A DNA stretch of 64,000 bases, from positions 14,771,735-14,835,734 of the forward strand of contig OY987307.1 in assembly GCA_963920635.1 (NCBI GenBank), written 5' to 3'. The translations under genes and the position numbers were made by a program. This DNA is from Pseudeuparius sepicola (lineage: Eukaryota > Arthropoda > Insecta > Coleoptera > Anthribidae). Of the stretch, positions 24,735-42,450 are shown piece after piece; position 1 is the stretch's first letter; each line of letters starts with the position of its first letter. The notes below the pieces were generated by a model that saw only the letters and a list, made by a program, of their open reading frames with translations, had not been told where the DNA came from and made no database searches.

Positions 24735-25021
24735 TATAAAAGACCAGGCATCGTTATTTGCTGAAAAGAACAAGCTATTGACAGAAAGCTTCGAAATGTC
24801 CGATTTCCTAAAATCCAACATGGCGGCGATGTATAAACTTAGCCCTTTATTTGGGCTAAATCTTTTTGAAGAAAAAATGTCGGCATGATGCAAAAAGTAC
24901 GTAAAGTGGTCATTCCTCTACATTTTGAGACCACTCGAGGAAAATCTGTCTATCGGGGGCGGAGCTATACGCAATAAAAGAAAGCATCATTTTCATAATT
25001 TTTATGCCGCAGTAATAAAAT
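24735..25021 (+). repeat. Diverged tandem repeat unit, copy left of the Polinton
   Basis: Shares CCAACATGGCGGCGATGTATAAA, AAAATGTCGGCATGA and TATCGGGGGCGGAGCTATACGC-type tracts in the same order with 41940-42246, just outside the other end of the Polinton. A partial third unit lies at 42290-42450. Confidence 0.8.
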
Positions 25022-25042
25022 TTCCTTAGTAGTAATACAAAG

Positions 25043-25087
25043 AGAGTTCTAAGCCAAACCTGTCAGACTTGTCTGGCTTAGAACTCT
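25043..25087 (+). other. Terminal hairpin in the left TIR
   Basis: AGAGTTCTAAGCCA (25043-25056) pairs perfectly with TGGCTTAGAACTCT (25074-25087) across a 17-nt loop, 15 bp inside the element end. The same hairpin is present in the right TIR (41873-41917). It could serve replication or integrase recognition; function unknown. Confidence 0.8.
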
Positions 25088-25132
25088 CATAGGGTTTTGG
25101 TGGTGGGAGAGCTCCCCCACTCCAAGAATAGC

Positions 25133-25168
25133 TATATAGGTGCGTGTGGTTTAACTACGAGCATCAGT
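25133..25168 (+). promoter_or_regulatory. TATA box plus arthropod initiator for the TIR gene
   Basis: TATATAGG at 25133-25140 and TCAGT at 25164-25168 put the likely start A about 33 bp downstream of the TATA box. The mirror copy in the right TIR conserves both. Confidence 0.65.
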
Positions 25169-25177
25169 GCAGCAAAC

Positions 25178-25471
25178 ATGTCCTTCTTAAATAATTTAAA
25201 CAAGAATTTGTTGTTAAAAAATCTGGTGAACGTTCGAGATTTGGAAGTAAATGAAAAATTTGAGATTCAGAGTTTTAAGAGAATAAGTACTAAGTTTGGA
25301 GAGAAGGTGGTTGTGGAGTTTGCAGACTTCAAGACCATTCTGCCCCAGCGGTTTACGGATGAACTAACTCAAGAACGAATTGACAGTTTGAATGGTGACA
25401 AAAAAAGGCGCTTTTTAACCAGCTTGGGCCCTGTCGGCGAAACGACTAATATTATTTTTTCTGAAGAATGA
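25178..25471 (+). CDS. TIR-encoded small protein, left copy (possible OB fold)
   Basis: 97 residues from the ATG at 25178; this start lies 12 bases after the initiator, whereas the longer frame would begin upstream of the transcription start. The centre reads IQSFKRISTKFGEKVVVEF and FKTILPQRF, a pattern of short beta strands with conserved basic and aromatic residues that looks like a small OB-type nucleic-acid-binding fold. A single-stranded DNA-binding role would fit a replicon lacking other such proteins; this is inference. The right TIR encodes the same protein with about five substitutions, so the element is diploid for it. Confidence 0.7.
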   Translation: MSFLNNLNKNLLLKNLVNVRDLEVNEKFEIQSFKRISTKFGEKVVVEFADFKTILPQRFTDELTQERIDSLNGDKKRRFLTSLGPVGETTNIIFSEE

Positions 25472-25562
25472 GAGCAACATTATATGAAGGTTTAGAAATG
25501 TAAAATTGTGAAAATAAAAATATTATTTGTTTGTGTGTGTTTTACTAATATTTTTGGGGGGC

Positions 25563-25570
25563 TATAAAAG
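25563..25570 (+). promoter_or_regulatory. TATA box of the penton-like gene
   Basis: TATAAAAG, with ATCAATC about 30 bp downstream as a candidate initiator and the first ATG at 25599. Confidence 0.55.
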
Positions 25571-25598
25571 TGGTACTTGAGGTTGGAATTCATCAATC

Positions 25599-26197
25599 AT
25601 GTCGCTGCTGTTCACCCTACAAGGTTTTCCTCACTTTCTATTGACTTTAATATTCCTATACATTTAGAACCAGATTTTGAGTATGGTTTGGCACTGCTAG
25701 AATTTCACACATATAACAGCATACCCAGTATAGATGTTGGTGTCAATAAATTTTATTATATAAACGCTGATGGATATCGAAAATGTTTAGTTATTCCCAC
25801 AGGGTCGTATGAAATTGAAGCCTTAGAAGATTACATAGTTCGAGCTTTAAGAAAAGAGGAACCTGATCAGAAAAATCCAATTTCAATAAAGGCTAATAAT
25901 AGTACCTTACAGTGTGAAATTTACAGTGATAAATATACAGTAGATTTTCTACCAACAGACTCTATTGGTCATGTGTTAGGGTTTTCTCCTACACGATTAG
26001 AGTCTGGACAATTGCATACTTCCGATATATCTGTAAACATCGTGAAGGTCAGAACTATACATATAGATTGTAACGTAACATCTGGAGCATACTATAAAAA
26101 TCAACCAACTCATACGATTTACGAGTTTGCAGTTAGCTGTGATCCTGGTTACGCCATAGACGAGTCTCCGAAAAATTTGGAGTTGAAGCGTGTATGA
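25599..26197 (+). pseudogene. Penton-like minor capsid protein, frame broken near the start
   Basis: The long frame reads IPIHLEPDFEYGLALLEF, HTYNSIPS, the hallmark N-terminus of the Polinton penton (single jelly-roll) protein, and continues to 26197 with CDPGYAIDESPKNL near the end. It has no ATG. The only ATG after the TATA box (25599) is in the neighbouring frame, and the frames would meet at the T4 run 25623-25626. The C-terminus may also be shifted: YENFAIEM, similar to the family's last strand, is in another frame at 26190-26220. Penton forms the capsid vertices. Either a decayed gene or one with homopolymer sequence errors. Confidence 0.75.
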
Positions 26198-26246
26198 AAA
26201 TTTCGCTATAGAGATGGTTTTGGTTTTTGGTGGCAGATATCACCCG

Positions 26247-26254
26247 TATAAAAG
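26247..26254 (+). promoter_or_regulatory. TATA box, major capsid gene
   Basis: TATAAAAG about 105 bp upstream of the capsid ATG at 26353. Confidence 0.45.
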
Positions 26255-26263
26255 TCAATCACA

Positions 26264-26378
26264 ATGCTTTAAAAATTCACTAGTGAGTAAATCATCGAAG
26301 AGTGCAGATCGTCTCTCGTTGGAAAATCAGCAATTTTTGAAAGCGCTTGGTTATGTCCTTAACACCTCAAGTGTTTAA
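26264..26378 (+). pseudogene. Small Polinton ORF between penton and major capsid
   Basis: The frame ending at 26378 reads SLVSKSSKS and LENQQFLKALG, a short basic motif followed by QNxxFLxxLG that recurs in small proteins of insect Polintons. Its only nearby ATG (26264) is out of frame, separated by the A5 run at 26271-26275. It overlaps the start of the major capsid gene by 26 bases. A TATA box (26247-26254) sits just upstream and more likely serves the capsid gene. Function unknown. Confidence 0.4.
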
Positions 26379-27570
26379 TGTGCATCGCACACCCACATAT
26401 GACGAATCTATTCAACGCTTAGAGAAGCGTACCTATTACCCATTTGTAAAGTCATTTAGGAATAATGATATTGTGGAAATAACCATTAATCAGGGTGATG
26501 CATGGTTGTTAATGTTTGACGCGTCGATTTTTGTCAAAGGAAAAGTGACTAAGAAATCTGCTACCGGCGATTGTACGTTAGCCAACAATGGTGCCGCATT
26601 TCTCTTCGATTCTGTTTCTTACGAACTAAATGGTAAAGAGATTGAGGTGGTGAGAAACCCGGGAATTGTGAGCACGATTAGATCATATCTTTGCTATACT
26701 GCTAATGATGAAAAATGTATGTCAACAGCAAGCTGGGTTGGGGTTAATAAATCTTTTGCTGTTAACAATGATGGAACATTCAATGTAAGGATTCCGCTAA
26801 AACATTTGTTTGGGATATTCAACGACTATCAGCTGACAATTTGCGGTAAACAGACGTTGAGATTGACGCGAGCTAGAAATGATAACAATGCTTTGCTGCT
26901 ACAAGGTGCAGATACCGATGCTGAAATAACAATTTCCAACATTGAACTAAAGGTTAAACATATTCAGCCGAATGATATGATTAGATTGGATCTCCTTAAA
27001 TCTATAAAAATTGATCGTCCAATTATAATTGCGTTCCGCAAGTGGGAGCTACACAAATTACCAAATCTTACTGTAAACGCCCAAAGGGAAATATGGGCTG
27101 TAAAATCATCGTCAGCAGTGTCAACCCCTCGATACGTCATCGTTGGATTTCAGACTAATCGGAATGAAGATTCTAAAACTGACCCCACGGCATTTGACCA
27201 CATAAATACGACTGATGTAAGATTAATTGTAAACGGTGAATATTTTCCATTCGAACGTCAGAGACTGAATTTTGCTGGTAATGACTTTCTGGACGCCTAT
27301 CACAATTATGTTGAATTTTATCCAAGTTACATGAATGCGATGGAGAGTCGACCGCTACTTAGCTATGCAGATTACAAAAATAATGCAACCCTGTTTGTTA
27401 TAGATTGTTCTCGCCGAAATGAATCTATAAAAATAAATACAGTTGACGTTAAGCTGGACATAGAAAACAGCAATGGCTTTCCTGATAAAACTCGAGCCTA
27501 CTGCATAATTGTTCATGACTGTACCATGGAATATTTGCCCTTGAGTGAAACTGTACGAGATTTAATGTAG
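26353..27570 (+). CDS. Major capsid protein (double jelly-roll type)
   Basis: 405 residues from the ATG at 26353, two codons after a non-ATG opening of the frame. It reads like the Polinton/adintovirus major capsid protein: YYPFVKSFRNND near residue 25, FDSVSYELNGKEIEVVRNPG, YQLTICGKQTLRLTRARND, then FQTNRNEDS, VRLIVNGEYFPFERQRLNF and YHNYVEFYPSYMN, ending with IDVKLDIE-like and CIIVHDCTMEYLPLS segments. Length is typical of the short arthropod form. It would form the hexon trimers. The frame is intact. It lies between penton and the membrane protein, the usual structural block. Confidence 0.88.
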   Translation: MSLTPQVFNVHRTPTYDESIQRLEKRTYYPFVKSFRNNDIVEITINQGDAWLLMFDASIFVKGKVTKKSATGDCTLANNGAAFLFDSVSYELNGKEIEVVRNPGIVSTIRSYLCYTANDEKCMSTASWVGVNKSFAVNNDGTFNVRIPLKHLFGIFNDYQLTICGKQTLRLTRARNDNNALLLQGADTDAEITISNIELKVKHIQPNDMIRLDLLKSIKIDRPIIIAFRKWELHKLPNLTVNAQREIWAVKSSSAVSTPRYVIVGFQTNRNEDSKTDPTAFDHINTTDVRLIVNGEYFPFERQRLNFAGNDFLDAYHNYVEFYPSYMNAMESRPLLSYADYKNNATLFVIDCSRRNESIKINTVDVKLDIENSNGFPDKTRAYCIIVHDCTMEYLPLSETVRDLM

Positions 27571-27581
27571 AACCACATATC

Positions 27582-27610
27582 TATATAAAAGAACATTGTC
27601 ACATTTCAGT
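27582..27610 (+). promoter_or_regulatory. TATA plus initiator TCAGT
   Basis: TATATAAAA at 27582-27590 and TCAGT at 27606-27610, ATG at 27621. The spacing and very short leader match the TIR promoter. Confidence 0.7.
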
Positions 27611-27620
27611 TATAATTAAG

Positions 27621-28046
27621 ATGTTGTTGAGACTGGGTCACGTTATATTATTCCCACTAATAAATAATGTGTTCTATATTTACAACCCAGAAGATACTAA
27701 GATATCTATTTGCGAGCGGGATAAATGTTTCCCATTTAAGGCGGTAGTTGGAAAATTTTCAGTAGCAAGACTATCCAAAAATGCTACTCAATTTAAACTT
27801 CATGCAGTATTCCAAAACCATACGACTGTTGAAACTGTGTGGAGGGAGATTCCACATTTCACCACACCCACAATGGACATACTCAGAGAGCTCCCCACTC
27901 AAGATCATCATATAAAAGATCTCGCATTTGTACCACTCATTTACTACATTACTATATGTTCTTCCTTGTTAGTAGCAAAATTATTTATTGAAATAGTAAG
28001 AATATTACTCAGTGAGCAATGGAACGTAATTACGAGAGTCTTATAA
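27621..28046 (+). CDS. Membrane protein of unknown function
   Basis: 141 residues. A hydrophobic N-terminus (LGHVILFPLINNVFYIY) and a stronger hydrophobic stretch near the C-terminus (LAFVPLIYYITICSSLLVAKLF, residues about 101-122) suggest one or two membrane segments; the middle is polar with two Cys (ICERDKCF). It overlaps the start of the IAP gene by 28 bases. Several Polinton-like viruses carry a small membrane protein in the structural block; I cannot match this one to a named family. Confidence 0.65.
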   Translation: MLLRLGHVILFPLINNVFYIYNPEDTKISICERDKCFPFKAVVGKFSVARLSKNATQFKLHAVFQNHTTVETVWREIPHFTTPTMDILRELPTQDHHIKDLAFVPLIYYITICSSLLVAKLFIEIVRILLSEQWNVITRVL

Positions 28047-28441
28047 GAACATTTGAAAACTGGTCAAGCCCCCTATTAGCAGAAAAGCTTGCTCGAGCTG
28101 GATTTTTTTATATGAATTATGAAGATGTTGTCCAATGTCCATTTTGCAATATTGAAGGATATAAATGGGAAAAGAATGATGATCCATGGCAAGATCATGC
28201 TAGCTGGAGTCCCAATTGCCCGTTCATTAAAGGTGAAATCAAGCCTGTGGACATCCCACCTGAAAAAGTTGACATTGTCAATCCAGACTTTTTATGTATA
28301 GTATGCTACTGCAAAAACATAGAAGTCTTGTCAGTTCCATGTGGACATTTGGCATGCTGTATGGGTTGTGGAAACTCCATGGAGAAGTGCCCGCTGTGTA
28401 GGAGTATTGTGCAGCAGAAGATTCGAGTTTACATTCCTTAA
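28019..28441 (+). CDS. Viral-type inhibitor of apoptosis: one BIR plus RING
   Basis: 140 residues. The BIR domain spans residues about 8-70: RTFENW, LAEKLARAGFFYMNYEDVVQ, then zinc ligands CPFC, DDPWQDHASW (His) and PNC. A C3HC4 RING closes the protein (residues about 92-130: CIVC, PCGHLACCMGC, CPLC). One BIR plus a C-terminal RING is the compact plan of baculovirus-type and insect IAPs, E3 ligases that block caspases or their activators. TCAGT lies at 28009-28013 just before the ATG. Its place between capsid and ATPase genes, in the same direction and without introns, makes it part of the element. All zinc ligands are present. Confidence 0.92.
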   Translation: MERNYESLIRTFENWSSPLLAEKLARAGFFYMNYEDVVQCPFCNIEGYKWEKNDDPWQDHASWSPNCPFIKGEIKPVDIPPEKVDIVNPDFLCIVCYCKNIEVLSVPCGHLACCMGCGNSMEKCPLCRSIVQQKIRVYIP

Positions 28442-28557
28442 ATTTATTGTAATAGTTGTAGAAAATAAATATTCTTAATTGAAAACTGTTTATTATTTAC
28501 ATCCCGATATGTATATATGGGACAAGCACATGCTATATTTTTTTAGATGTTTACAAG

Positions 28558-29238
28558 ATGCACATCGAACCACATCAACTATCTTTACCAATAGAAAATT
28601 TAGATTTTGCTCGAAGTGAGAAATCTAAACATGGTGTACTCTTACCAAATTCAATTAGAGCAATATTTTGCGGTCCTAGCGGTTGTGGTAAAACAAACAG
28701 TCTACTTAGTTTAATATTCAACGAGAATGGCTTAAAATTTAAGAACATCTACCTTTACAGTAAATCTCTATACCAACCTAAATATCAGTTACTACAAGAC
28801 GTGCTTAAAGAAGCAAAATGTGTTGGATATTTTCCATTTAGCTCAAACGATGACGTCATTGCACCATCAGAGGCTAGAGAAAATTCAATTTTTATTTTCG
28901 ATGATGTGGCTTGTGGGACACAGGAAAAAATTAGAGAATATTACTCCATGGGTCGTCATAAAAATATAGATGCTGCATATCTCTGCCAGACATATTCAAA
29001 AATACCTAAACAATTAATAAGAGACAACTGTAATATAATCGTTTTGTTTAAACAAGATGATGTGAATCTTAAACATATTTTTGACGAGCATGTGTCACCA
29101 GACATCTCATACGGAGACTTCAAGAATCTCTGCTCGCTCTGTTGGAATGATAATTTTGGAACGCTGGTTATTGTCAAAGATTTCAAAATGAATGAGGGTC
29201 GATATAGAATAGGATTTGATAGGTATATAACGTTATAA
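28558..29238 (+). CDS. A32-like genome-packaging ATPase (FtsK/HerA type)
   Basis: 226 residues. Walker A is FCGPSGCGKTNSLL at residues about 39-52 and Walker B SIFIFDDVACG at about 110-120; YYSMGRHKNID, YLCQTYSKIPKQLIRDN follows, carrying the sensor-like Gln/Asn region. This is the packaging motor typical of Polintons, adintoviruses and many large DNA viruses. TATATATGG at 28512-28520 is a candidate TATA. The frame is intact. Confidence 0.92.
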   Translation: MHIEPHQLSLPIENLDFARSEKSKHGVLLPNSIRAIFCGPSGCGKTNSLLSLIFNENGLKFKNIYLYSKSLYQPKYQLLQDVLKEAKCVGYFPFSSNDDVIAPSEARENSIFIFDDVACGTQEKIREYYSMGRHKNIDAAYLCQTYSKIPKQLIRDNCNIIVLFKQDDVNLKHIFDEHVSPDISYGDFKNLCSLCWNDNFGTLVIVKDFKMNEGRYRIGFDRYITL

Positions 29239-29246
29239 TAACCACA

Positions 29247-30094
29247 ATGCTCTTATTATTAATCGAGATGTCGATGCAAGAACAGATTCAAGAAGCGCAG
29301 CGCGCAAAGAAAATCAGCGAACTAGCTCGCTCGATTAGAAAAAAATATACAGCATTAAAAATAGGTAAATTTGATGAGGATGAAACTTTGAAAAAAAATT
29401 TCAAACCTGTGACAAGCTCTCTAGCAAATCTACAAGTTAAGCAAGAATTAAAACCGGAAGTAAAAAAACCAAAAGTTGAACCGAAAGTTGAATCATTTAT
29501 GGAAAAGTGGCGCGAGTCGTTGAAAAGTCCAGTTGCACTTTTGGGAGAAATGAATGAAACGTTAAATGATGTTGAGAAAGGAATTGACAAAGTGTACAGG
29601 CATTTTGATACTGTGTATCCTAAAGTAGCTATACCGTATGTAACAGACTTTATGGATAATTCGAAAAAGTGTCTGGTGACATAATCATCAACAATAATCG
29701 ATTCACGGGAACTGATGGTCTCTACCAGCTAATTTTCTATAATAATCCAAAAAATACTAACGATGATTTGAAAAGTTACAGAGATATTTTAAATCTCACT
29801 GGTGTTCACCTTACTTCAAACGGACGATTAAAATCTAGCTATAAAAATAAGTACATTAATATTATTAAACCTCTAATGAAAGGTCCGGTGGCTACCTCCA
29901 CACCTGCGAAGGGTTCCGGCATGCACCTCAAGTATAACACAAAGCCTGTGGAATGTGTTTTCTGGGATGACCCTAATGAACTTGTAGAGAGATTAAGGTT
30001 ATTAATTGCATCAAAAGATGCCGGAAATACTTCCCATGAAAACGAAATAACCGCAATAATCAATGAGTTGAAAGAAGCGAAAATTATTCTCTAA
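29247..30094 (+). pseudogene. Conserved Polinton structural-type protein, split into two frames
   Basis: The first frame (29247-29684, ATG; further in-frame ATGs at 29268 and 29274) is basic and helical with MEKWRESLKSPVALL and ends KKCLVT. The second (29669-30094) has no ATG and reads GTDGLYQLIFYNNP, KSYRDILNLTGVH, VFWDDPNELVERLRLLIAS and HENEITAIINELKEA. In arthropod Polintons these segments belong to one protein. The switch is -1 and sits at TCGAAAAAGTG (29661-29671), so one base lost or gained in the A5 run, or a -1 slip on the ribosome, would explain it. The WDDPNELV-RLRLLIAS block is the family signature. Function unknown; a minor virion protein is plausible. Confidence 0.75.
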
Positions 30095-30116
30095 CTTACA
30101 GCATGTTATTTGTAAG

Positions 30117-30440
30117 ATGCCTTTAAACAAGTTCGCACGTGTTTCAAGGACTAGTCCCTCTTTGAATGACGGGAATTATGATTTCAAAACCCGCAGACTG
30201 TGCAACGTTAATTATCCTATTAACAGCAATGATGTTGGCACAAAGCAATATGCGGACAAACAAATCAATGCAACATTCAAAACGTTTAACATCATTCTCG
30301 AACAACATAATGTTAATATTGAGACTATCGTGAAAGACGTTTTCGAGAAAGAGATAGATGAAATAAGAAAATTTGTTAAAATTGTCAAAGAGTGTTGTTT
30401 AAAAATGGATGATGAACAGTCCGGTCAACTCCCAAATTAA
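30117..30440 (+). CDS. Fibre-tail-like protein, copy 1
   Basis: 107 residues. After a short basic head (MPLNKFARVSR) comes GNYDFKTRRLCNVNYPI, NDVGTKQYAD, which resembles the small trimer-forming motif G-D-N-R-L-NV-P-D-A-TK-YVD of virus and phage fibre shafts. A helical C-terminus follows (EKEIDEIRKFVKIVKECC). It has a paralogue directly downstream at 30482. A vertex-attached fibre or a fibre-penton adaptor fits; no knob domain is present. Confidence is for the paralogy and motif, less for function. Confidence 0.6.
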   Translation: MPLNKFARVSRTSPSLNDGNYDFKTRRLCNVNYPINSNDVGTKQYADKQINATFKTFNIILEQHNVNIETIVKDVFEKEIDEIRKFVKIVKECCLKMDDEQSGQLPN

Positions 30441-30481
30441 TAGATTTAGCACCATAATGAACCATTCAAGCTAGTTAAAAG

Positions 30482-30886
30482 ATGTCCTTAAACAAGTTCA
30501 GACGTGCTTCAAGACCCAAGAACAGGTCTTGCCCACCTGTTTACACATTAAATTTGAATCTAGAAGGAAACTATGATTGTAACAACCGCAGACTGAGCAA
30601 CGTTAATCCCCCGATCGATGACAGCGATGCCAGCACAAAACAATATGTCGATGATGGGGTCATTCATGCATTACAATATTTTTACACAAATCTTAAACAG
30701 CATACTGAGGAATGCGATCTTCATATTCGCAACACAATGATAGCCAATGTTCAAGATAAGATCGATGAATTGAGAGAGTTGATTAAAACTATAGAAGATT
30801 ATTATTTAAAAATAAGTGGTAAGCGTATGCAATCCTTACTGTCTCTCAGAGTAGTAGAGATCCTTGAGGGTGCTAGTCATGCATAG
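30482..30886 (+). CDS. Fibre-tail-like protein, copy 2
   Basis: 134 residues, paralogue of 30117-30440. Shared features are the head MSLNKFRRASR, then GNYDCNNRRLSNVNPPID, DSDASTKQYVDD, and a C-terminal helix (QDKIDELRELIKTIEDYYLK). It carries an extra 12-15 residues after the head and a longer tail. Its last 8 bases overlap the integrase start. The two copies differ at most positions outside the motif, so the duplication is old. Confidence 0.6.
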   Translation: MSLNKFRRASRPKNRSCPPVYTLNLNLEGNYDCNNRRLSNVNPPIDDSDASTKQYVDDGVIHALQYFYTNLKQHTEECDLHIRNTMIANVQDKIDELRELIKTIEDYYLKISGKRMQSLLSLRVVEILEGASHA

Positions 30887-31805
30887 TAAAGAAAAAATTC
30901 AAGTAGTTAGGGAATTACATAAACCAGCTCGAAAAAATTATCCACGTCGTCGAACTATCATTAAAGGTTTAGACGATTTGTGGCAAGCTGATCTCGCTCA
31001 GTTAGATCAGTATGCTAGTCACAATAATGGTTTCAAATTCATACTGGTTGTAATCGATTGCTTCTCTAAATTTGTTTGGTGCAGACCGCTCAAATCCAAG
31101 TCTGCTGAAGATGTTACCAACGCCTTCACTGATATCCTATCGAGAACTCGAAAGCCTCGCAACCTTCAAACTGATCAGGGCAAAGAGTTTTATTACTCTC
31201 GATTTCAAAATTTGATGCGAAAATTCAAAATTAATCATTACAGCACTTTTAGCGTCACGAAAGCCGCCATGGCCGAAAGAGTGATACGAACTCTAAAGGA
31301 ACGATTATTTAAGTATTTTAGTCTAAATGGTAAATTTAAATGGGATGATTATTTGCCTACTCTAGTTGCCGAGTATAATAACAGACAACATAGAGTGATT
31401 CAAATGAAACCTAGCCAAGTTAATAAAACCAATGAACAATATCTGCTTAAAAAAGTGTATAGTCACGTGAAGATTTTTAGAGGTAGAAAATTTAAGGTTG
31501 GAGATATTGTAAGAATAAGTAAAGAGAAACATGTATTTGCCAAAGGTTACTTGCCTAGCTGGAGTACAGAATTGTTCAAAATAATGAAAGTGCAAATTAC
31601 CAATCCACCAACATATTTGCTAGAGGATTTAAACGGTCGACCAATAAAAGGTGGATTTTATCGTGAAGAATTACAAAAGACTGAATATCCTGATGTATAT
31701 CTGGTTGAAAAGGTGCTTCGTAGAAAGAGGGGGAAGGTGCTAGTACGATGGTTGGGCTTTGATAAAGAGCATGATTCGTGGATCTCTGAGTCAAACGTCG
31801 TGTAG
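30879..31805 (+). CDS. Retrovirus-like integrase with C-terminal chromodomain
   Basis: 308 residues from the ATG at 30879 (the frame is open a little further without ATG). The DDE core shows LWQADLAQL (Asp), LQTDQGKEF (Asp) and AAMAERVIRTLKERL (Glu), with 33 residues between the last two; FILVVIDCFSKFVW lies between the first pair. A beta-rich segment (KFKVGDIVRISKEK) follows. A chromodomain closes the protein (VEKVLRRKRGKVLVRWLGFD, then SWISE). This is the Polinton integrase plan; it makes the 6-bp target duplication seen at the element ends. The canonical H2C2 zinc finger is not evident at the N-terminus. Frame intact. Confidence 0.92.
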   Translation: MHSKEKIQVVRELHKPARKNYPRRRTIIKGLDDLWQADLAQLDQYASHNNGFKFILVVIDCFSKFVWCRPLKSKSAEDVTNAFTDILSRTRKPRNLQTDQGKEFYYSRFQNLMRKFKINHYSTFSVTKAAMAERVIRTLKERLFKYFSLNGKFKWDDYLPTLVAEYNNRQHRVIQMKPSQVNKTNEQYLLKKVYSHVKIFRGRKFKVGDIVRISKEKHVFAKGYLPSWSTELFKIMKVQITNPPTYLLEDLNGRPIKGGFYREELQKTEYPDVYLVEKVLRRKRGKVLVRWLGFDKEHDSWISESNVV

Positions 31806-31821
31806 AGCTTCAAGTGGTACC

Positions 31822-32454
31822 ATGGTTGACAGCGGCTACGAATCTGATGGTAGCAATCATGAAGAAGTAAACAATGTAAGAGAAGATTCTCTGATTTTAT
31901 CATCATGCTTCACATTACCTACATATACTATTAAAAATGGTTTGAGTATTATGAGATATTTCAAACCGCAAGTTAATATCCGATCAACAGTGCGACGAAA
32001 TGTGATTTTGCTGGACTATTTGGAATGGAAAGAATTAGTGAATAATTTAAACAACTTTACCAACAACCTGGGTACCCCGATGTTTATCAGATTCAACGAT
32101 ATATTGTTAAGAACGATGTTGACTGCAGCTGGAGATCAACGAGTGTTGCTTGCAAAAAATGGTGTTTGCCAATGGTTTTCCATAGCAGAGGTTTTCGAGC
32201 TATTAAATATCGAACCATATGTATCTTTAAGGATAAGCTTTTTGATTAATTTTAAATTCTATGATTTTTACCTTAGTTTTTTAGATAAGGTCAATGAACT
32301 ATTAGTACGTAGTAACTACGGCATAAATGTAATGGAAATTGTATTTTTAATGTGCCATGCAGTATGTAGCATGGAAACATATTGCATTTTTGAACTCTAC
32401 TGTTATTATAATCAATTTTTGTTAGCAGACTTGTATAGAAGAAGGTTGGAATAA
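31822..32454 (+). CDS. Unknown Polinton protein
   Basis: 210 residues from ATG 31822, a start chosen because the frame upstream overlaps integrase coding. Acidic N-terminus (SGYESDGSNHEEVNN), then a globular part with WKELVNNLNNF, RVLLAKNGVCQWFS and a Cys-rich, aromatic C-terminus (CHAVCSMETYCIFELYCYYNQF). I do not recognise it. It is the last + strand gene of the left block and AATAAA-like signals follow near 32450. Confidence 0.55.
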   Translation: MVDSGYESDGSNHEEVNNVREDSLILSSCFTLPTYTIKNGLSIMRYFKPQVNIRSTVRRNVILLDYLEWKELVNNLNNFTNNLGTPMFIRFNDILLRTMLTAAGDQRVLLAKNGVCQWFSIAEVFELLNIEPYVSLRISFLINFKFYDFYLSFLDKVNELLVRSNYGINVMEIVFLMCHAVCSMETYCIFELYCYYNQFLLADLYRRRLE

Positions 32455-35400
32455 AGCAATGATTAAAAATATGACTTTTATTCAGGTCCCTCATCACAAC
32501 CCATATAGTGTAAGCAGAGCCATGACCAATCTGGCAACTTCACAAGAGAAGTGGTGGGGGTGTCAACCCAATCTTCTAGAATTTGAGACTTCAGACATTG
32601 CTTGCTAATTTTCTTACATTAAAATCTAGCATAAAATAGACTGACAACTTTATTTTCCAAATAAATATCGACTTTATTAAGACGAGTTTCAGTCATGAAC
32701 TGCCTTAACCCAGTCTGAAATATACAGGGTGATCATTTAAATGTGCAACATATGGGACATTTTTTTATTATTTGTACAATCAAAATATAGACATTGCCGA
32801 AAGTTGATGCATGTTCAGTAACATATAGATGCACTTAGAATAATTGTAAGTTAAACAGCATACAGGGTAGGTCAAAAATGTAAAAAGGCAAAATGTTTTT
32901 AAGAAAAGTTGTTTAGAATTAAAAGCTATACCTAAATACCAAAACATAACTGTCTAAGGAAAAAACTTCCTAAGAAAAAATTTTTTTTTCGACGATGAAT
33001 TTCCAGTTTCTTAATAAACATTTAAAATAAAAATTTTGCATCTTACATTAGAGTTTTAATATACACATTATTACTAATGTTTTATCATTTTCATAAGAAT
33101 TTTTGCGAAATTTTAAAGTTTTGTTTAAGGAGCTTCAGTGGCGTCGTTTTCCATAGTACTTGAGTGAATGCTATCCTAGTTATTTCGCGAAAAAGTCAAC
33201 CCTAGCCGCATGTGGTTGCTTCTGGGGATAGTCCTAGTATTGTGAGGGTGAGAATTATTATTATTATTATTATTATTATATCGTTGCATCAAACATGAAG
33301 TTTGTGATTCCCTAAAAAATTAAAAATCTAAGTTAATAGGATACTTGACAATATTTTTAATTGCTCTAAATTGTACTTTGTTTACAGTAGATGTGCCAAC
33401 ATCCTTATTTTTTATGATAATTAAAGACAAAGTTGCACAATTTTGTTCAGACTGAAATCTACCGTTTCGTCGTTCTATTGTCCAGAACACCAAACGTGGC
33501 AACTCTGTGCCTCTCAGGAGAAACGGAACTGTAACGTTGCCGGTACCCGTTTGCAATCATTCTGGGAACAAAGGCAAAATTGCAGTTTTCTATTCAAGTA
33601 TATTCAGCTTGTCTATGAATATCTGTTACTTAATGTATTGAAACCTTTGAGCTTTAACTAACGCAATTGCACACGCAAATTTTGTCACATAAAGACTTCT
33701 TATTACGAATATGTTCCGTATATTGACTCCTCTATATCAAAATGGTGTTTGTTTAAGCTGCACACGCTGGAAACTATATCCTTCATCTCTGCCACGTAGC
33801 AATTTAGTTAAAATATCTGAATACGGGACATACTATAAATATTCAGGTACCAATAATGGGGGAAATATTCGCGTATTTGGCAACGGTACCCGCCCACCTA
33901 GGCATCTAACCATATTCATATATCCACATGTCATCTAACACGTATGGTTTTCTGATCGGCAGATGACATCCCATGATGCCAACTGTCATTCCGTATCTCG
34001 CTAAATCAAAATATTAGTAGATAATATCTGTGCCATTTATTATAGTTTGTTATTAATATTTACTATTATATATTGTTTGCGGACACTAGGTTGTTAGATG
34101 TGTAAGGTAAGGTATCATGGACATATGGACCCTGAAAGGACAATCCGTAATACGTTGTAGTAATAATAAAGTATTATGAGTTATTAATAAAGAGAGAACC
34201 TCGGCCTAGGGACCATCTTGAAGGCGTGTTTATGAAGACGCCATAGTGCTTAGAAATAATGAGCTCGAATTCCGGACCTTAGGCCCAACCTAGCCCAAAA
34301 AATTTACAGAAAAACGATTGAATAAGTATTAACGAAAAAACCCTTCTTGACTAAAATTGTCGATGGAGGAAGGAATCAATCAACGCTAAAAGTGGTTTGA
34401 CGGGGCATCATAAGTCTGGGAGTTTGAGGTTAGAATTTTGAAATTCAAACTTTCCTTGCAACTTTCACTGCCGAATAAGGTTATGTCTCAGAAGACTTCA
34501 GTGGTATCGCTATGTTGCCAAATTGCCGTTATAAAACACTTGTGACGTCATAAGTGCTTTCCCTTCAAACTTCGAAGAAAGTCTAATAACTTGCTAATTA
34601 CGTAAATATATATTTTTTTAAATAATCGTAGGGTCTTAGGCAAGTGTCCAGGAATTGTTTTATCAAGTTTGCAAAATTTCGTCAAGTACCCTATTTTACA
34701 AATATGCGTGAATTTGAACAAAGTTATGCGAAATTGATATATTATTAGGAGGTAATGTTTTGGTATTTAGGCATAACTTTTAATTCTATACAACTTTTCT
34801 TTATAACATTTTACTGAATTTTCTGAAATACGGGTACTTTACTCTTGTACGATTTTTATATTTTTTGACCTACCCTGTATGCTGTTTGTCTTGCGTCCAT
34901 TCTAAGTGCGCCTAATATGATTATCAAACATGCACCAACTTTCGGGAATATTTGTATTTTCGTTGTGCAATTAATAAAAAAAAATCCCATATGTTGCTCA
35001 AATGATCACATTGTATACAATATTAGCAATATTTTTATTATCTATAGCAAGGGAATTATATAGAGCCGGAACTACATAACGCCACCTGTATTTCTGTTAA
35101 ACATTGGTTATTATTATTATTATTATCATCATTATCATTATTACTATTATTATTATTATATCCTTGCAATAAACATGAAGTTTGTGATTCCCTAAAAAAT
35201 TAAAAATCTAAGTTAGTTTTACAAATATGCTTGAATTTGATTAAAGTTATGCAAAATTGATATATTATTAGGAGGTTATCTTTTGGTACTTAGGCATAAC
35301 TTCTAATTCTAGACAACTTTCCTTAATAACATTTTCTGAAATAATGGTACTTCACTCTTGTACAATTCTTATATTTTTGAGCTACCCTGTATGCTGTTTG

Positions 35401-36565
35401 ACTTGCGTTCATTCTAAGTGCGAATAATATGATTATCAAACATGCACCAACTTTCGGGAATATTTGTATTTTCGTTGTGCAATTAATAAAAAAATCCCAT
35501 ATGTTGCTCAAATGATCACACTGTATACAATATTAGCAGTATTTTTAATATCTATAGAAAGGGAATTATATAGAGCCGGAACTACAATAACATCACCTGT
35601 ATTTCTGTCAAACATTGGTTATCTGGAGTATCCCGATGCTAATTTGTAGGTATCTATTTCTAACGATTTTCTGATCTGTAATTTCATTACATTATGTCTA
35701 CACACCCTCGTATTTACCATAATTCTCCGCTTCGTAGCGTTTCGGTACTAGCAGAGTACTCTAGCGGATATTTTCAGTACTCCCACGTCGCTACGTAGGT
35801 TATCGATCGACGCATAGGATCGCGTTGAAGCGTCCCTTAGTTTCAGTACCTACTAATTAAAGGGTTCTAGCGACACCGTCACACGACTGGATGTTGTCAT
35901 TATCGATCGTATGCGTTTCACTTCCCTAGAGGTTAGTTGTCTATATATAGAATCAGTGGCGGAGCTATGCATAAGAAAAATATTATCTGAATTGAGAATT
36001 TTATTACTTAGATAGTTTTATTTTAAGTTTAAGTATCTTTTTGTGGTATTGGAGTTTTTTATTTTGTTTGCTATGGAATATTTTATGTTTTTTATAAATA
36101 ATAAAAGGACTGATTCATTTAATGTATTACATACTTAGTTAATTTTAAGTTTACTTATTTTTTGTGATTTGGAGTTGTTTTTTATATTGTTTGGAATATG
36201 TACATTTTTTTATAAAAACTGATTCATCGTTATGGCAGAAGTTTACAATTTTCGAATGTCTCCTAATGTTCATATTATCTTTGAGGAGAGGGGAAACTTT
36301 TTACTTTTTGCTTATGACTCAAGGTACTCAAACACCGCCACTAGAACACTATTTTATGTTTTCTAGCAATCCCCACAGTAAAGTTTGAAAGTTGACTAAT
36401 ACCCACTTTGTATGTTTTCTTTTTAGCAAATTAGTTTTTCAATTTTATTATACAAAATATTATAAAATATATAAATATATACAATAATATACAAAATATA
36501 CAAAAAATATAAAATATATAAATAAATACTAAAAATAATATTTACAGGTTGTAGAACACATATTT
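32455..36565. repeat. Nested repeats in the Polinton's middle; no coding sequence
   Basis: A block at 32724-33030 is repeated inverted at 34740-35030 and again at 35272-35530 (the last two in direct orientation). Shared landmarks are CAACATATGGGA, GCACTTAGAAT, ACAGCATACAGGGTAGGTCAAAAA and CCTAAATACCAAAACAT. Copies 1 and 2 end in CAGGGTGATCA and its inverse next to TA, as for a mariner-type element of about 2.3 kb with 0.3-kb TIRs. (TTA)n runs lie at 33247-33280 and 35107-35160. 36430-36545 is low-complexity AT. No DNA polymerase sequence is detectable. Confidence 0.7.
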
Positions 36566-37089
36566 TTATATTTTACGTCGCACAAATTCAGCGAAGAACA
36601 TTAACTCCACTCGCGGGCAATGAACTGGTTTCCCACAACTCACGATGTGTCTTTCGCATTGCTTCACTTTCACACTTTCGTAGAACTTCTTTTGTTGTTG
36701 AACCAGAACGTCAAATTTGGGGCAGCCCAGAAGTTCTATATTGTAGCCTAGATGCTCGTACCCTGCTGCTTGCAGAAGATTCTTTTCGATCTGCCCGCCC
36801 TCATAGCTGATTAGATTCTTACCAGCAGATTCACCAAGGATTTGAAGTACTGCTATCACGTTTTCCTGAGGTTCATCAGTGTCACAGTCGGAGAATCTTA
36901 AGCCAAATTTTTCATAACCCAACGAGCACTGCAGGCGTCCTTAGAGGAGAGTGAGTTATATGACCCCACACGGAAGTAGCGAGAACTGACTTGGCGCGAT
37001 TTTAAATCATAGATAGCCAACTCCTTGGTAAGAAACTTTCCGTTCACTTGAAACCCGTCAGCGTCAATAATGTATCGTATACCCGACAT
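36566..37089 (-). pseudogene. Exonuclease-like Polinton gene, one frame break
   Basis: Two overlapping - strand frames, 37089-36898 and 36922-36566, make one protein of about 170 residues. It opens RYIIDADGFQVN, KFLTKELAIYDL, like the first motif (DxD/DxE with a following KEL) of DEDD-type RNase H-fold nucleases. Later come LISYEGGQIEKNLL, LGCPKFDVL, CERH and PVHCPRVELMFFAEF, typical of a family common in arthropod mobile DNA. The break is in the A5 run (36907-36911). TATAAAAG on the - strand at 37147-37154 is a candidate TATA. Nuclease function is inference. Confidence 0.5.
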
Positions 37090-37534
37090 GTTATAGAAAA
37101 TATGAAATTTTAATTTGGAACTAACAGTGAAAGCGTCCGGATCCCGCTTTTATATTCTTGATCCAGTATGATATAGTGGGAGCACCATCCCTAACATTTA
37201 AAAAACGTCGTTGATCTGGCAACGTTGCGCTTAGATATCTTGGTCTGCGGCGGCAGATGCTGGATGTTTATTGGATGCAGTTACGAAGGGGATCTCACCC
37301 TTAACTTTATTTCTTTAAATTTGACTCTTTGACTGGTTCAGAAAAATCGTGGTGGGAGACTAGTTGGGGAATATCTAAGACAAACAGCCTGTTGATTTGG
37401 CAACGCAGATGGTCTCATTGCAGGTTAATGGTAGCTCGGTGCAGTGGAAAGGGTTATACATATATACAGGGATCGTCATTTGGTTATCAATTTGAACCTA
37501 CAGTTTGATCAGTTTTTGTGTTCTGTGCTTCAGC

Positions 37535-39965
37535 ATGAAAACTAACACGTCAAGTCTACACCTGACAGCTGTAAGTAGAAATTTTTTTTACAAAACTTTC
37601 TTATTTTTAATAAATTGAAACTATTGAATTTAACTTTTGTATCGCCTTTGCAATTTATTACAGTACCTTCATACTTTCTATAAAAATTACATAATAACTT
37701 TTATTACAAACACTAGATCTTATTTACAGCGTCTTACAAACTCCGCGAAAACCATCGTTTTTCCATTATTTTTAGAAACTGATTTTTAAAGGAATTATTT
37801 TTCTGACAATGTGATAGTTTTAATGTTATCCCTAAATTATTACTAAAACAAGCTGTTTCGACCTGAACTGTTTTACTTGTCAGATGAAGTGAATAGTTTT
37901 AATAAAATATATCGGTTTGTTTTTATTATAAAGAGTGTTAAATTAATTTTAACAAACTTAGAAAACGATTCTGTTTGACATGGGGCTCATACTCTTTGAT
38001 GAGATTATAGTTTTAAGGTCTTAGCTTTTTGTTTTAGGAAAAATATATTTACAGAGAGTTACTTTGCAAATTTGAATGATTGAGAACCATTTCTGTTTAC
38101 TTAAAAAATTAACAGGTGTAGTTCTGGAATTACTACGGTTTTCTAGGGTTTTCACTAGTACTTGAGCGAATGCTATCCTAGTTCTATCGGGAAAAAAGTC
38201 GCAAATGATAACGAAGACAAAATAATAGTAATTGTTTCCGCACAAGCGCTTCTGCCATACTTCTAGTTTGAAGCATTGCGAGGGAGAGAATTATTATTAT
38301 TTATATTTTAAAACTGAATCTATTACTCTCACACTGTTGCTTTACTCGATGTATCATACCAAAATTTGTTATCAATATCTTTTGTAGTATTTAGAATTAA
38401 AAAATCAATAATTTTAACATGTAAAAAACAAAGTTTATTTAAAAAGAATCTCTCAAGGTGATGTAATTTCTGAATCCCCCTGTATATCCATACTACATAT
38501 TCCTATTAAAATTCTCAGACTTTAAAAGATGTAAATCTATATCTCTCTGGAATATGGTCTCATGTAAACCACTTATGCACATGTGTGTTCAATAAAAGGG
38601 GAGATTTTAAAATTGAGACCTCAAATTGAGACAGGAAAACATTCTCAGACCGTGGGACCCCCATGAGTATATGTCTAGACACATTTTTTTTGTTCACTGT
38701 TGTTTATAGCTTGCGATCCGTGGGAAGATCTCCCCCAAAATTATATGTGTCCGACAAAAGCTGGATTCATATGGGATTGTTTTTTATTTTTGGGCTAAGA
38801 TGAAACTACTCTGGGGTGATCATCTCCGCTTCAAAAAGATTTGAAATCATTAAACGTTGTGATGTTAACATACCTGTCAAAACGACATTTAATTAAATAA
38901 TGATCAAAACACGCTTTATTTGTGATTTTATCGAAAAAAGTTATTTGAAAATGTTGAAATTTTACCCCTATGTGCAGACAAAAATTCTGACAATGATAAA
39001 TTTTTTTAAAAAAATATAGTGGTCGGCAGAAAGTTGGAAAACTTTTTTATTATTAATTCCTGAGAAAATTTTATTCTCTATAAAAGTTGAGGCAACATTT
39101 CAAACTCAAAACGCCCACATCAAAATTTAAATATTTCTTCGGATACGAGGTAGATTCAATAAGTACCCTTATTTTTTAAAATACGGTCAAAAGTTACTTA
39201 CAAAAGTTGTTTGGAATCAAAGGCTGATGTCAGATTTAAAGTCATAGCCACCTAGTCAAAAAAAGAAACTTTTTGTATTTTTTCAACCACCCTGTGCGTT
39301 ACAAAATACTGCAAATGTAACTTATCACCGGTTAACAAATTTAAATTAATCTAAATCAGAGTTTAAAAATATTAAATTTTTGCAACTTTGTGCCGGTCCC
39401 TGTATAAAACTAATAGTTTTTTTTGTGTGCCATATTTGACTTTAGAACTCAACTAACATGGTTCCAACTTTTTGACTGTCACTGTACGCTGTACGTCTAG
39501 AGCCGACTCTGTTGTATAAAATTTGAACTTTTTAAAATATATTAGATTGGTTAAAAATATAGTATTATAAATTATTTTTTAATTTCAGCCAACTGACGCT
39601 GAAATTGAAGAAGCTGTTTCCACAATAATGACTCCTGTAAGTTTGTGTTAATAAAACATGAATCAGCGAAAAGACCAGGGGGCGGAAAAAATTTAAATTT
39701 ATTAAATGTCCTAGGATCTAAGCCCAGTTCTACGAAGGATGATGTTCGTAGCAGTCTTAGAGAATTGGTGGATGGACGAATTTCAAGCGTGAAAGAGGAT
39801 GTGAGAAATTCAGAGCGGGAGATGAGACGATTAAGAAAAGAAATATCAGTCTGGGAAAAAAAACTGGTAGCAACAAGAGAGAGCTATCAACGAGAAAAGA
39901 AAAAAAACGAAACCTATAAGAAAGAGGCTATGGAGATGGAGAACATAAAAAGAAAACTCGCATAA
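37535..39965 (+). CDS. Candidate spliced gene, three exons, coiled-coil C-terminus
   Basis: ATG 37535 opens a 12-codon exon that ends at a consensus donor (GCT|GTAAGT, 37571). A 48-bp segment at 39589-39636 follows a good acceptor (TTTAATTTCAG) and ends at a second consensus donor (CCT|GTAAGT); it is open and in phase. A third open frame reaches TAA after 39963; its best in-phase acceptor is AAG at 39722, giving about 80 residues rich in charged heptads (EREMRRLRKEISVWEKK). The first intron of about 2 kb is full of repeat scraps. I chose splicing because the third frame has no ATG. Function unknown; a coiled-coil adaptor is plausible. Confidence 0.4.
37571..39588. other. Intron-like/intergenic region with repeat scraps
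   Basis: AT-rich. 38145-38200 matches 33150-33190 (GTACTTGAGCGAATGCTATCCTAGTT). No open frame with recognisable similarity and no polymerase motifs. Confidence 0.45.
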
Positions 39966-40182
39966 TAATTATATAATGTACATATTTTAGATGTAAGTGT
40001 ATTCTTTTAATTTGAAATGTTTATATTTTATTTTAAAATTAAGTTTTCTTAGCATTAAGTGTATTATGAATATATTTTAGTTTATTTAGTATAATATACA
40101 ATAGATACATTTCTCTCGTTTTTGGGGATGGGAAAAGAAAAAGCACACTTCATATTTTCAGATTTTTATTTCTACAGAAACA

Positions 40183-40848
40183 TTACAGGTTCTCATTTTT
40201 TAAGAAATTTAAACACAAATTTCCACAATTTATTTCATTATAATTTTGATAAGAATTATTGTTATAAAATACTTCTATATCACTCCCTAAATATCGAATG
40301 AGTTCCTTTGGGGGTTTCAAATTGCCAAAGCTGTCAAAATATTGACACCTTTTCCCTCTTTTGCGATACGCCACCCAATGAGATCCGGAATTTTTCTGCA
40401 CATCCAAATTTAAAATGGCCGACTCATTTTTTCTCGGTTTTTTAGGTAGTGTATCTCTCATATACACACCTCTAAAATAAGGAATTCCGTGGGCAAACCT
40501 AATTAAATCTAGGTTGGATAAAGGTCTGTTGGGAGGCTTCATTAGTTTTTTTTGTTTCTTTAAAAAAAGACCGAAACCACGCCTACTTTTCCGCAAATAG
40601 AGTCCAGAACCGATGATCTTCGTAGCTTGCTTTCCATTCCCCATCAGCTTTTTTGTATTATTTACGTCAATTATAGTTTTAGCTATACTGCTAGCACCTT
40701 CGGCTATTGATCCAAGGGCACTCAGACCAGCTAGTAGAGGCAAAAGCGGAAGAAAACCTCCTTTCTTTTCTTCGAAGGGAATAATTCTAGGTATTTTTAA
40801 TTTACCTTTTCCACCAATTTTTTTAATTTGAACTCGTGCAGCCCTCAC
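40183..40848 (-). pseudogene. Adenain-type cysteine protease behind a minor-capsid-like segment
   Basis: About 221 residues without an ATG. The N-terminal third is basic, then hydrophobic and Gly/Ala-rich (GGFLPLLPLLAGLSALGSIA), like adenovirus pX/pVI-type precursors. The C-terminal half is the adenovirus-type maturation protease: catalytic His in GSHWVAYRKRG, the acidic partner in CQYFDSFGNL, and Gln and Cys in YQNYNEINCGNLCLNF. It would process virion precursors. The frame is open upstream only to a stop at 40878 and meets the phospholipase gene across an A6/A7 stretch (40868-40880), so in an undamaged copy the two were probably one fused protein. Confidence 0.82.
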
Positions 40849-40868
40849 TGCCGCTAAAGACGATTTTT

Positions 40869-41309
40869 TTAATTTTTTAGATCATTCAACTCATTGGTAG
40901 TATAGGATTTTTTTAGGGCTTTTTCAACCTTCTTTACAATGTCTCTTCTAAATGAAAATGGACGTTTCATACCCATGCCCAATTTCCTTTTAACCTTCAT
41001 TGCAGTCGTAATAAGCCAAGCGGCTGTCTTTTCACCAAATTTAGCGTCTCTCGATTTGACTCTGTCCCAAGCACGATTTTCTAGTTCCCAATCAGCCTTG
41101 TGTCGTTCTTCTAGAGATTTGCTTTTACTGTAAGCAATATCATGAATTCTACAGGCTGAATCAACGTTATTTATACCAGAATCACCTCTAGAAAGACGTT
41201 TTTCTAACTTTGTACCGGGACCACAATACTGGTAACCAGGAAGATGTAACTCAACCGGTAATTTGTCAATTAATGTGTTTACCAACCCGCTCCCTTTGAC
41301 AAGCAGCAT
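40869..41309 (-). CDS. Parvovirus-type phospholipase A2
   Basis: 146 residues from ATG 41309. The calcium loop is YQYCGPGTKL and the active-site helix DSACRIHDIAYSKS, with the catalytic HD pair; this matches the PLA2 of parvovirus VP1 and of some Polinton-like and adintoviruses, used to breach the endosome during entry. The C-terminus is basic (MKVKRKLGMGMKRPF). TATATAAG on the - strand at 41342-41349 is 33-40 bp upstream of the ATG. It ends at a stop inside an A-rich run directly before the protease frame; a fusion across that point is likely. Confidence 0.88.
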   Translation of the reverse strand: MLLVKGSGLVNTLIDKLPVELHLPGYQYCGPGTKLEKRLSRGDSGINNVDSACRIHDIAYSKSKSLEERHKADWELENRAWDRVKSRDAKFGEKTAAWLITTAMKVKRKLGMGMKRPFSFRRDIVKKVEKALKKSYTTNELNDLKN

Positions 41310-41341
41310 TAGATTGACTCAAGTTTATTCAATCACTCCCT

Positions 41342-41349
41342 CTTATATA
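41342..41349 (-). promoter_or_regulatory. TATA box of the phospholipase/protease gene
   Basis: TATATAAG on the - strand, about 35 bp before ATG 41309. Confidence 0.6.
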
Positions 41350-41390
41350 GGTTTAAAAAAACAACATACAAACAAATAATATTTTTATTT

Positions 41391-41492
41391 TCACAATTTT
41401 ACATTTCTAAACTTTTTATTTATCTCGTACATAGTAACCATCGTTTTCAGCTTTTTCAATTCCTCCACATGACTTCGCAGTCTCTCGTTCAT
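41391..41492 (-). CDS. Small coiled-coil ORF overlapping the TIR gene stop (ATGA), right copy only
   Basis: An ATG at 41492 overlaps the TGA of the 97-residue gene and opens 33 codons reading ERLRSHVEELKKLKTMV, a short coiled coil. The left TIR has lost this stretch. It could be translated by termination-reinitiation; the evidence is the overlap and composition only. Confidence 0.3.
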   Translation of the reverse strand: MNERLRSHVEELKKLKTMVTMYEINKKFRNVKL

Positions 41493-41782
41493 TCTTCAGA
41501 AAAAATAATATTAGTCGATTTGCCGACAGGGCCCAAGCTGGTTAAAAAGTACCTTTTGTTGTCACCATTCAAACTGTCAATTCGTTCTTGAGTTAGTTCA
41601 TCCGTAAACCGCTGGGGCAGAATGGTCTTGAAGTCTGCAAACTCCACAACCACCTTCTCTCCAAACTTAGTACTTATTCTCTTAAAACTCTGAATCTCAA
41701 ATTTTTCATTTACTTCCAAATCTCGAACGTTCACCAGATTTTTTAACAACAAATTCTTGTTTAAATTATTTAAGAAGGACAT
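41489..41782 (-). CDS. TIR-encoded small protein, right copy
   Basis: 97 residues from ATG 41782, the mirror of 25178-25471. Differences include GDNKRYFL versus GDKKRRFL and GKSTN versus GETTN. The TATA box and the TCAGT initiator are conserved upstream on the - strand. Confidence 0.7.
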   Translation of the reverse strand: MSFLNNLNKNLLLKNLVNVRDLEVNEKFEIQSFKRISTKFGEKVVVEFADFKTILPQRFTDELTQERIDSLNGDNKRYFLTSLGPVGKSTNIIFSEE

Positions 41783-41939
41783 GTTTGCTGCACTGATGCT
41801 CTTAGTTGAACCACACGCACCTATATAGCTATTCTTGGAGTGGGGGAGCTCTCCCACCACCAAAACCCTATGAGAGTTCTAAGCCAGACAAGTCTGACAG
41901 GTTTGGCTTAGAACTCTCTTTGTCTTACTACTTTCCTTC

Positions 41940-42450
41940 ATTCTTTTTTCCATATTTTTTTCATTTTAAAAAACTAAGCATCGTTTCTTGCGGAAAAGAA
42001 TAAGCTATTGATAGGAAACATTCCCAATGGCTGATTTTTTAAATCCAACATGGCGGCGATGTATAAAATTAGCCCTTTGTTTGAGCTAATTATTTTTGAA
42101 GGAAAAATGTCGGCATGAAGCAACCAATGTAAAAAGTTAGTAAAGTGGCCTTTCCTCTACATTTGTAGACCACTGCGAGAAAATTCGGTCCATCGGGGGC
42201 GGAGCTATACGCTATAATAGGAATCAATGTTATTCAGGAGTACCTACTGAAAATGGTTCCGTTCTTTTTCCCATATTTTTTTATGTACCAATCAATTTTA
42301 AAAAACGAGGTATCGTTGCTTGCGGAAAGGAATAATCTATTGACAAAACTTCACAATGGCCGATTTTTTAAATCCAACATGGCGGCAATTTAGCCATTTT
42401 TTGGGCTATTCTTTTTTATAAAGAACGTTGGCATGATTCAACCATATTAT
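41940..42450 (+). repeat. Diverged tandem repeat units right of the Polinton
   Basis: One full unit (41940-42246) and one partial (42290-42450) continue the repeat found at 24735-25021. Shared tracts: TTGCGGAAA, CCAACATGGCGGC, TCGGGGGCGGAGCTATACGC. The Polinton therefore sits inside a short tandem array. Confidence 0.8.

Follow-up and report, generated by a model that had tools for sequence, protein, structure and literature searches.

Polymerase-bearing and polymerase-less copies of a Polinton-like element in the beetle Pseudeuparius sepicola

The stretch of DNA analysed here, called the window, comprises 64,000 nt of contig OY987307.1 of Pseudeuparius sepicola and carries an inserted element at 25028-41932. 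The element begins with the tip AGTAGTAAT at 25028 and ends with ACTACT at 41932, so that its termini are of the AG...CT type. The host word TTCCTT stands at 25022-25027 and again at 41933-41938. AG tips and a 6-bp duplication were reportedly named as Polinton traits by Kapitonov and Jurka in 2006. The terminal inverted repeats are 444 nt long with 98% identity and are followed by 57 nt with 93% identity. When the host flanks were joined, they matched elsewhere in the genome as one stretch, and the best 16 matches, at 81-86% identity, all spanned the junction. These empty paralogous sites implied that both ends belong to one insertion. As the joined flanks were matched in many places, the element sits in a dispersed host repeat. 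The host site itself (24878-25027 and 41939-42088) was a dispersed, partly tandem repeat unit of about 300 nt, present in many genome places. The features of the element are listed below; ORF stands for open reading frame.

25022-25027: left target-site duplication TTCCTT (direct reading; empty paralogous sites)
25028-25471, + strand: left terminal inverted repeat, with the tip AGTAGTAAT and an imperfect hairpin at element positions 15-61
25178-25471, + strand: repeat gene, 97 codons from the ATG, inside the left repeat; second copy in the right repeat
25487-25543: further 57-nt repeat after the left inverted repeat
25577-26197, + strand: penton (minor capsid) candidate, damaged, 206 codons
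26347-27570, + strand: major capsid protein, double jelly roll, 407 amino acids
27621-28046, + strand: ORF of 141 amino acids, no match
28019-28441, + strand: IAP-like protein with one BIR (3.7e-20) and one RING (2e-10); BIRC proteins matched in PDB
28558-29238, + strand: packaging ATPase of the FtsK/HerA kind, poxvirus A32 type (PF04665, 2.8e-10, 40.5 bits, cut-off 22.8)
29247-30094, + strand: gene split into ORFs of 145 and 141 codons; a single 317-codon frame in copy C7a
30117-30440, + strand: small fibre-like ORF 1, weak Phage_T7_tail match below cut-off
30482-30886, + strand: small fibre-like ORF 2, weak Phage_T7_tail match below cut-off
30864-31805, + strand: retrovirus-like integrase (PF00665, 1.2e-13, 51.7 bits, cut-off 32.6)
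31759-32454, + strand: ORF of 231 amino acids, no match
32482-32493: polymerase junction, where copies of the other class have about 3.9 kb more, including PolB in antisense orientation
32493-40136: stretch mostly without open frames and containing internal repeats; its homologue in the other class comes after PolB
40183-40848, - strand: candidate adenain/Ulp1-like cysteine protease, Peptidase_C5 match (E = 0.021) below cut-off
40869-41309, - strand: phospholipase A2 (PLA2)-like gene of the parvovirus VP1u type (PF08398, 1.8e-14); frame ending earlier than in copy C1a
41489-41932, - strand: right terminal inverted repeat, holding the second copy of the repeat gene
41933-41938: right target-site duplication TTCCTT (direct reading)

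Gene calls were judged by Pfam cut-offs, which the capsid, ATPase, IAP, integrase and PLA2 genes passed. Below their cut-offs were the protease candidate (15.0 bits against 21.3), a weak chromodomain match at the C-terminal end of the integrase (PF00385, 2.2e-4, 21.5 bits against 25.1) and the two fibre-like ORFs (13.5 and 18.4 bits against 25.2). The gene at 25577 matched no profile and is one that we presume to be the penton gene from sequence patterns only. Searched by sequence, the capsid matched PDB entries only at E above 1. Its structure model matched viral double-jelly-roll capsids, and among predicted viral structures it matched adomavirus, virophage, bracovirus-associated and nucleocytoplasmic large DNA virus proteins. 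Substitution counts between the window and other copies (capsid, 3-6 synonymous and 4-7 not; ATPase, 8 and 2) were too small to read for selection.

The initial annotation had credited the element with a near-complete virion gene set. This held only in part, since the copy was eroded, with deletions in the penton candidate and in the gene at 29247/29669. It lacked PolB, with about 3.9 kb missing relative to the other class. Relative to the 242-codon frame of five of the six other copies read, the penton candidate had an altered start region and had lost an internal stretch; the frame was broken in the sixth, C3c, too. The 317-codon frame at 29247-30094 was split by the absence of 82 nt that are present in C7a and C11a. 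The PLA2 and protease frames were divided differently from those of C1a, the sole other copy read there. The window copy is classed as a deletion derivative and not as a complete Polinton, as PolB is absent, and having decayed further it is probably inert itself. A 195-codon frame of a polymerase-bearing copy (L012:3250-3837, + strand), which had no Pfam match, was also broken in the window, at 36566-37149 (- strand).

We searched the genome (769 Mb, 16 contigs) for further copies. The inverted-repeat search scored 40 full-length repeats, and we examined the 22 insertions with the left repeat among them, the window included. The capsid search scored 40 places, with 27 matches at 99-100% (counting the window, and C6 twice) and 13 at 87-98%. 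Outside the examined set stood four capsid places at 99-100% and the places at 87-98%, except for five left ends. C3c, whose right end was not found, was left out of the duplication count, the capsid stretch and the repeat-site table, and C2b and C5b, each with a shifted or unread end, were left out of the comparison of left and right repeats. A perfect 6-bp duplication was found in 20 of the 21 insertions with both ends read, every word being different, and all six examined polymerase-less insertions were among them. The exception was C5a, which shares only 4 bp. Not counting the window, 19 of 20 insertions thus had perfect and differing 6-bp words. Together with the empty paralogous sites, these copies speak against two unrelated ends. 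The proposal of a Polinton/adintovirus-like provirus with exact ends was sustained by the inverted repeats, the Pfam-passing genes, the capsid model, the sister insertions and the PolB relatives described below.

Over a 2.5-kb capsid stretch, 18 of the 20 other copies differed from the rest by a median of 0.08-0.16%, which implied that the family moved very recently. The outliers were C5b (0.56%), C10 (0.72%) and the window (0.88%, range 0.79-0.96%), so that, on divergence, the window copy is older than most family copies. The insect mutation rate is near 3e-9 per site per generation. At that rate, 0.1% divergence points to an age on the order of 10^5 generations. The capsid frame was open in 20 of 21 copies, among them all six without polymerase. 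Full copies measured about 19.9 kb and carried PolB, integrase, packaging ATPase, capsid and accessory genes.

One place on C6 (G000:C6:4427807-4465927; L007, L008, L020, L021) held the element twice. We rejected a head-to-tail dimer, as the host flanks of both left ends were 100% identical over 1500 nt. Either host and element were duplicated together in a recent segmental event or the assembly contains one copy too many; the place was counted as a single insertion. In three other copies (L099, L100 and L101, first ~880 bases), the capsid was 87-89% like that of the window and the penton region was shared, while the left inverted repeat was not; the left end looks as if it had been exchanged.

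The gene for the protein-primed PolB was present in 16 of the 22 copies, and its 1251-codon frame was open in 12 of these 16. In C7a, this frame (PF03175, 3.5e-26, 92.6 bits, cut-off 25.8) lay between the bases equal to window positions 32482 and 32493. The remaining six copies (window, C11a, C5b, C7b, C6 and C1a) lacked PolB at the same place. The absence of a polymerase had been counted as part of an undescribed gene combination; this is not supported for the family, in which the loss is specific to certain copies. A genome-wide search for the exact junction gave seven places: the window, C11a, C7b, C1a, C6 twice and C7:25158444. The last one is a further insertion, seen by its junction; with C5b added and C6 counted once, polymerase-less insertions total seven. 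C5b had seven extra bases at the junction, which also flank PolB in C7a, and its junction probably represents an earlier state. In the three polymerase-less copies read for it (window, C1a and C11a), the integrase frame was open.

We rejected the possibility that the polymerase had decayed in place within 32.5-40 kb, as PolB was simply absent relative to the other copies. The possibility that the polymerase-less middle is a foreign insert was also rejected for most of its length, because the other class has homologous sequence after PolB. About 1 kb of the window, at 33.5-34.5 kb, had no match in polymerase-bearing copies. To the right of the junction, the window also contained diverged direct and inverted repeats (32826-35421, about 77-94%).

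To the left of the polymerase junction, polymerase-bearing copies were 97-98% identical to the window, four polymerase-less copies 99.6% and C5b 97.1%. To its right, where four polymerase-bearing copies could be aligned with the window, identity was 87-90% at 32.5-35.5 kb and 96-98% at 35.5-37 kb; three of them compared with each other reached 99.6-99.9%. Polymerase-less copies were close to the window there (97-100% for C11a, C7b, C6 and C1a; 90-99% for C5b). In the 2.5-kb capsid stretch, four recent polymerase-less copies had 0-2 differences from several polymerase-bearing ones. Hence, a junction segment with 2-13% divergence lies within a near-identical backbone, which implied that the polymerase-less segment is older than the burst that carried it.

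C1a and C11a were mosaics at the sites where the window and C7a differ. In both, the C7a allele was mostly found at 29.6-31.5 kb (11 of 12 sites in C1a). From about 31.5 kb, the window allele was mostly found (17 of 19 sites at 31.5-32.5 kb in C1a); this tract ended near 36.5 kb in C1a and near 37 kb in C11a, and further right the C7a allele predominated again. In addition, site 411 of the left repeat was T in the four recent polymerase-less copies and C in all 15 polymerase-bearing copies read. The shared T ties the left end of these four copies to the junction about 7 kb away.

We consider it fairly probable that the polymerase-less class goes back to an old deletion and then spread in trans with the PolB of fuller relatives, accompanied by recombination. 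From what is known of Polintons, PolB would copy the linear genome starting at the inverted repeats, and the integrase would insert the element with a 6-bp duplication. An old deletion would have taken PolB away and spared both repeats as well as the integrase and capsid genes. Polymerase-less copies might then have replicated and inserted in trans, using PolB from fuller relatives, and might have traded segments with them by recombination. Several observations weigh against this. Mobilisation in trans was deduced from sequence only, and mosaics would also be expected from gene conversion in place. The window copy has C at site 411 and is not tied to the four others by this marker, which is one site chosen after inspection. 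C5b is intermediate, being polymerase-less yet no closer to the window left of the junction than polymerase-bearing copies are.

The main rival is conversion in place, in which polymerase-bearing insertions were overwritten by the polymerase-less segment and the deletion spread by ectopic gene conversion, with no polymerase-less transposition. It would fit the different right breakpoints of C1a and C11a and a backbone identical to that of polymerase-bearing copies. However, the site-411 allele, found in four copies and in none of the 15 polymerase-bearing ones, would then require a tract of more than 7 kb reaching the very end each time, albeit on the evidence of a single site picked post hoc. 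As this marker is tied to the junction, spread of whole polymerase-less elements in trans is favoured, and we regard conversion in place as unlikely. It is also conceivable that the insertions came from outside this genome, through repeated infection by a circulating virus population that includes deleted genomes. This would fit the capsid, packaging, PLA2 and IAP genes, as well as the signs of purifying selection on the penton candidate and the repeat gene. In IMG/VR, however, we found no relatives of the capsid, penton candidate or repeat gene and only two of PolB, at 37-38%, a weak objection since insect viruses are poorly sampled there. Infection may also act together with spread from genomic copies; as the source of the insertions we think it rather improbable. 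A further rival, in which the form without polymerase came first and the other class acquired PolB at the junction, is very improbable in spite of the clean presence/absence difference at one point, because PolB has many relatives in other insects, including an adintovirus PolB, and because C5b retains seven PolB-flanking bases, as left by a deletion.

Beyond spread in trans after an old deletion, we tentatively suggest a long-lived, helper-dependent Polinton lineage. Such a lineage might have lost PolB well ahead of the present burst, retained the genes for integration and most of those for the virion, and repeatedly swapped its backbone with an autonomous partner. It might compete in a satellite-like manner for the polymerase and capsids of the partner, possibly restraining it. 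Non-autonomous DNA transposons and defective or satellite viral genomes keep their ends, lose the replication gene and move in trans. Here, unlike in these systems, the capsid, packaging and integrase genes were kept as well. In the open-access literature searched, we found no polymerase-less, capsid-bearing Polinton lineage recombining and moving with a partner, and no papers on non-autonomous or defective Polintons/Mavericks.

The PolB of a sister copy had 47% identity over 96% to the PolB of a Megastigmus wasp adintovirus. Altogether, 3921 PolB relatives were scored; among the 120 listed, the named ones were in beetles, ants, wasps and flies, and one was an adintovirus PolB. By sequence, PolB matched PDB entries only at E above 0.1. 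Its N-terminal part had no OTU-like profile match; conserved columns D267, C270, W273 and H356 resemble a cysteine protease motif on visual inspection only. Of the two IMG/VR relatives of PolB, one (L094) also had an A32 ATPase and an integrase, and of eight ORFs scanned across both contigs none matched PF21738. None of the 120 capsid relatives listed, of 356, bore an adintovirus name, in a comparison that included no reference hexon.

For definitions, we relied on passages of PMC11071308 (Polinton gene set), PMC10328495 (groups I and II) and PMC11071296 (adintoviruses). On its sequence, the family is a Polinton (Maverick/adintovirus-like) family: not an undescribed polymerase-less kind, but a known kind with a polymerase-less class inside the family. 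As far as the passages go, it shares with insect group II Polintons/Mavericks (Eupolintoviridae, PMC12567637; groups, PMC10328495) PolB (in the family), the integrase, the A32-type ATPase, the double-jelly-roll capsid, inverted repeats, 6-bp duplications and full copies of 19.9 kb. It differs in that the window and at least six other copies lack PolB and in that the protease and penton assignments are weak. With adintoviruses, as described in part of PMC11071296, it shares the PolB type, and anti-apoptotic and accessory genes occur there as well; the chromodomain-like integrase end typical of that group is matched here only below cut-off. More than 1000 contigs with adintovirus/polinton sequences are known from beetle data, according to passages of PMC9963324 and PMC12567637. 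They share the host group, integrase, PolB and structural proteins; those passages do not state polymerase-less classes or mosaics.

Little is settled about present-day mobility of animal Polintons and about whether they move as transposons or as viruses. In this genome, more than 20 insertions are nearly identical and keep intact duplications, and the family has two polymerase classes as well as mosaics, so that activity, mobilisation in trans and recombination could be tested in living carriers. The genome contained at least 127 matches to the capsid profile PF21738 (126 of 1984 candidates scored), compared with none in any of 14 control genomes, which implied that Polintons form a large part of its mobilome. 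Many of these frames were open and several sets had identical scores; the equal-score sets suggest other recently amplified Polinton families.

The presence of one gene in both inverted repeats, as first annotated, was borne out. Against the divergent copy L102, the repeat gene had a nonsynonymous divergence (dN) of 0.071 and a synonymous divergence (dS) of 0.575 on the left, and 0.057 and 0.58 on the right (dN/dS about 0.12). These ratios indicate a real gene under purifying selection. For the penton candidate, dN/dS was 0.10 and 0.18 against two copies. All seven changes in the repeat gene between left and right repeats alter amino acids, too few to read. The gene had no Pfam match and a poor fold model (mean predicted local distance difference test score, pLDDT, 40.7), and the protein collection, searched at E 1e-3, yielded no relative, with only two candidates sharing words. 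In L103, of the 87-98% capsid group, its frame was broken.

Within the repeats, left differed from right at sites 375, 382, 383, 412 and 415 in all 19 copies compared. Site 9, near the tip, occurred in all left/right combinations (GG 11, TG 5, TT 2 and GT 2 of 20). It seems that tips were swapped between ends and inner parts were not; recurrent mutation at site 9 would be an alternative. The pattern of a variable tip and fixed inner sites gives a clue to the way in which the ends are copied.

Outside the element, the window also contained a 973-codon open frame at 19734-22655 (+ strand) that by eye resembles a Gypsy-type pol polyprotein. A 548-codon open frame at 62349-63995 (- strand), with a furin-like site, looks by eye like an insect errantivirus envelope protein.

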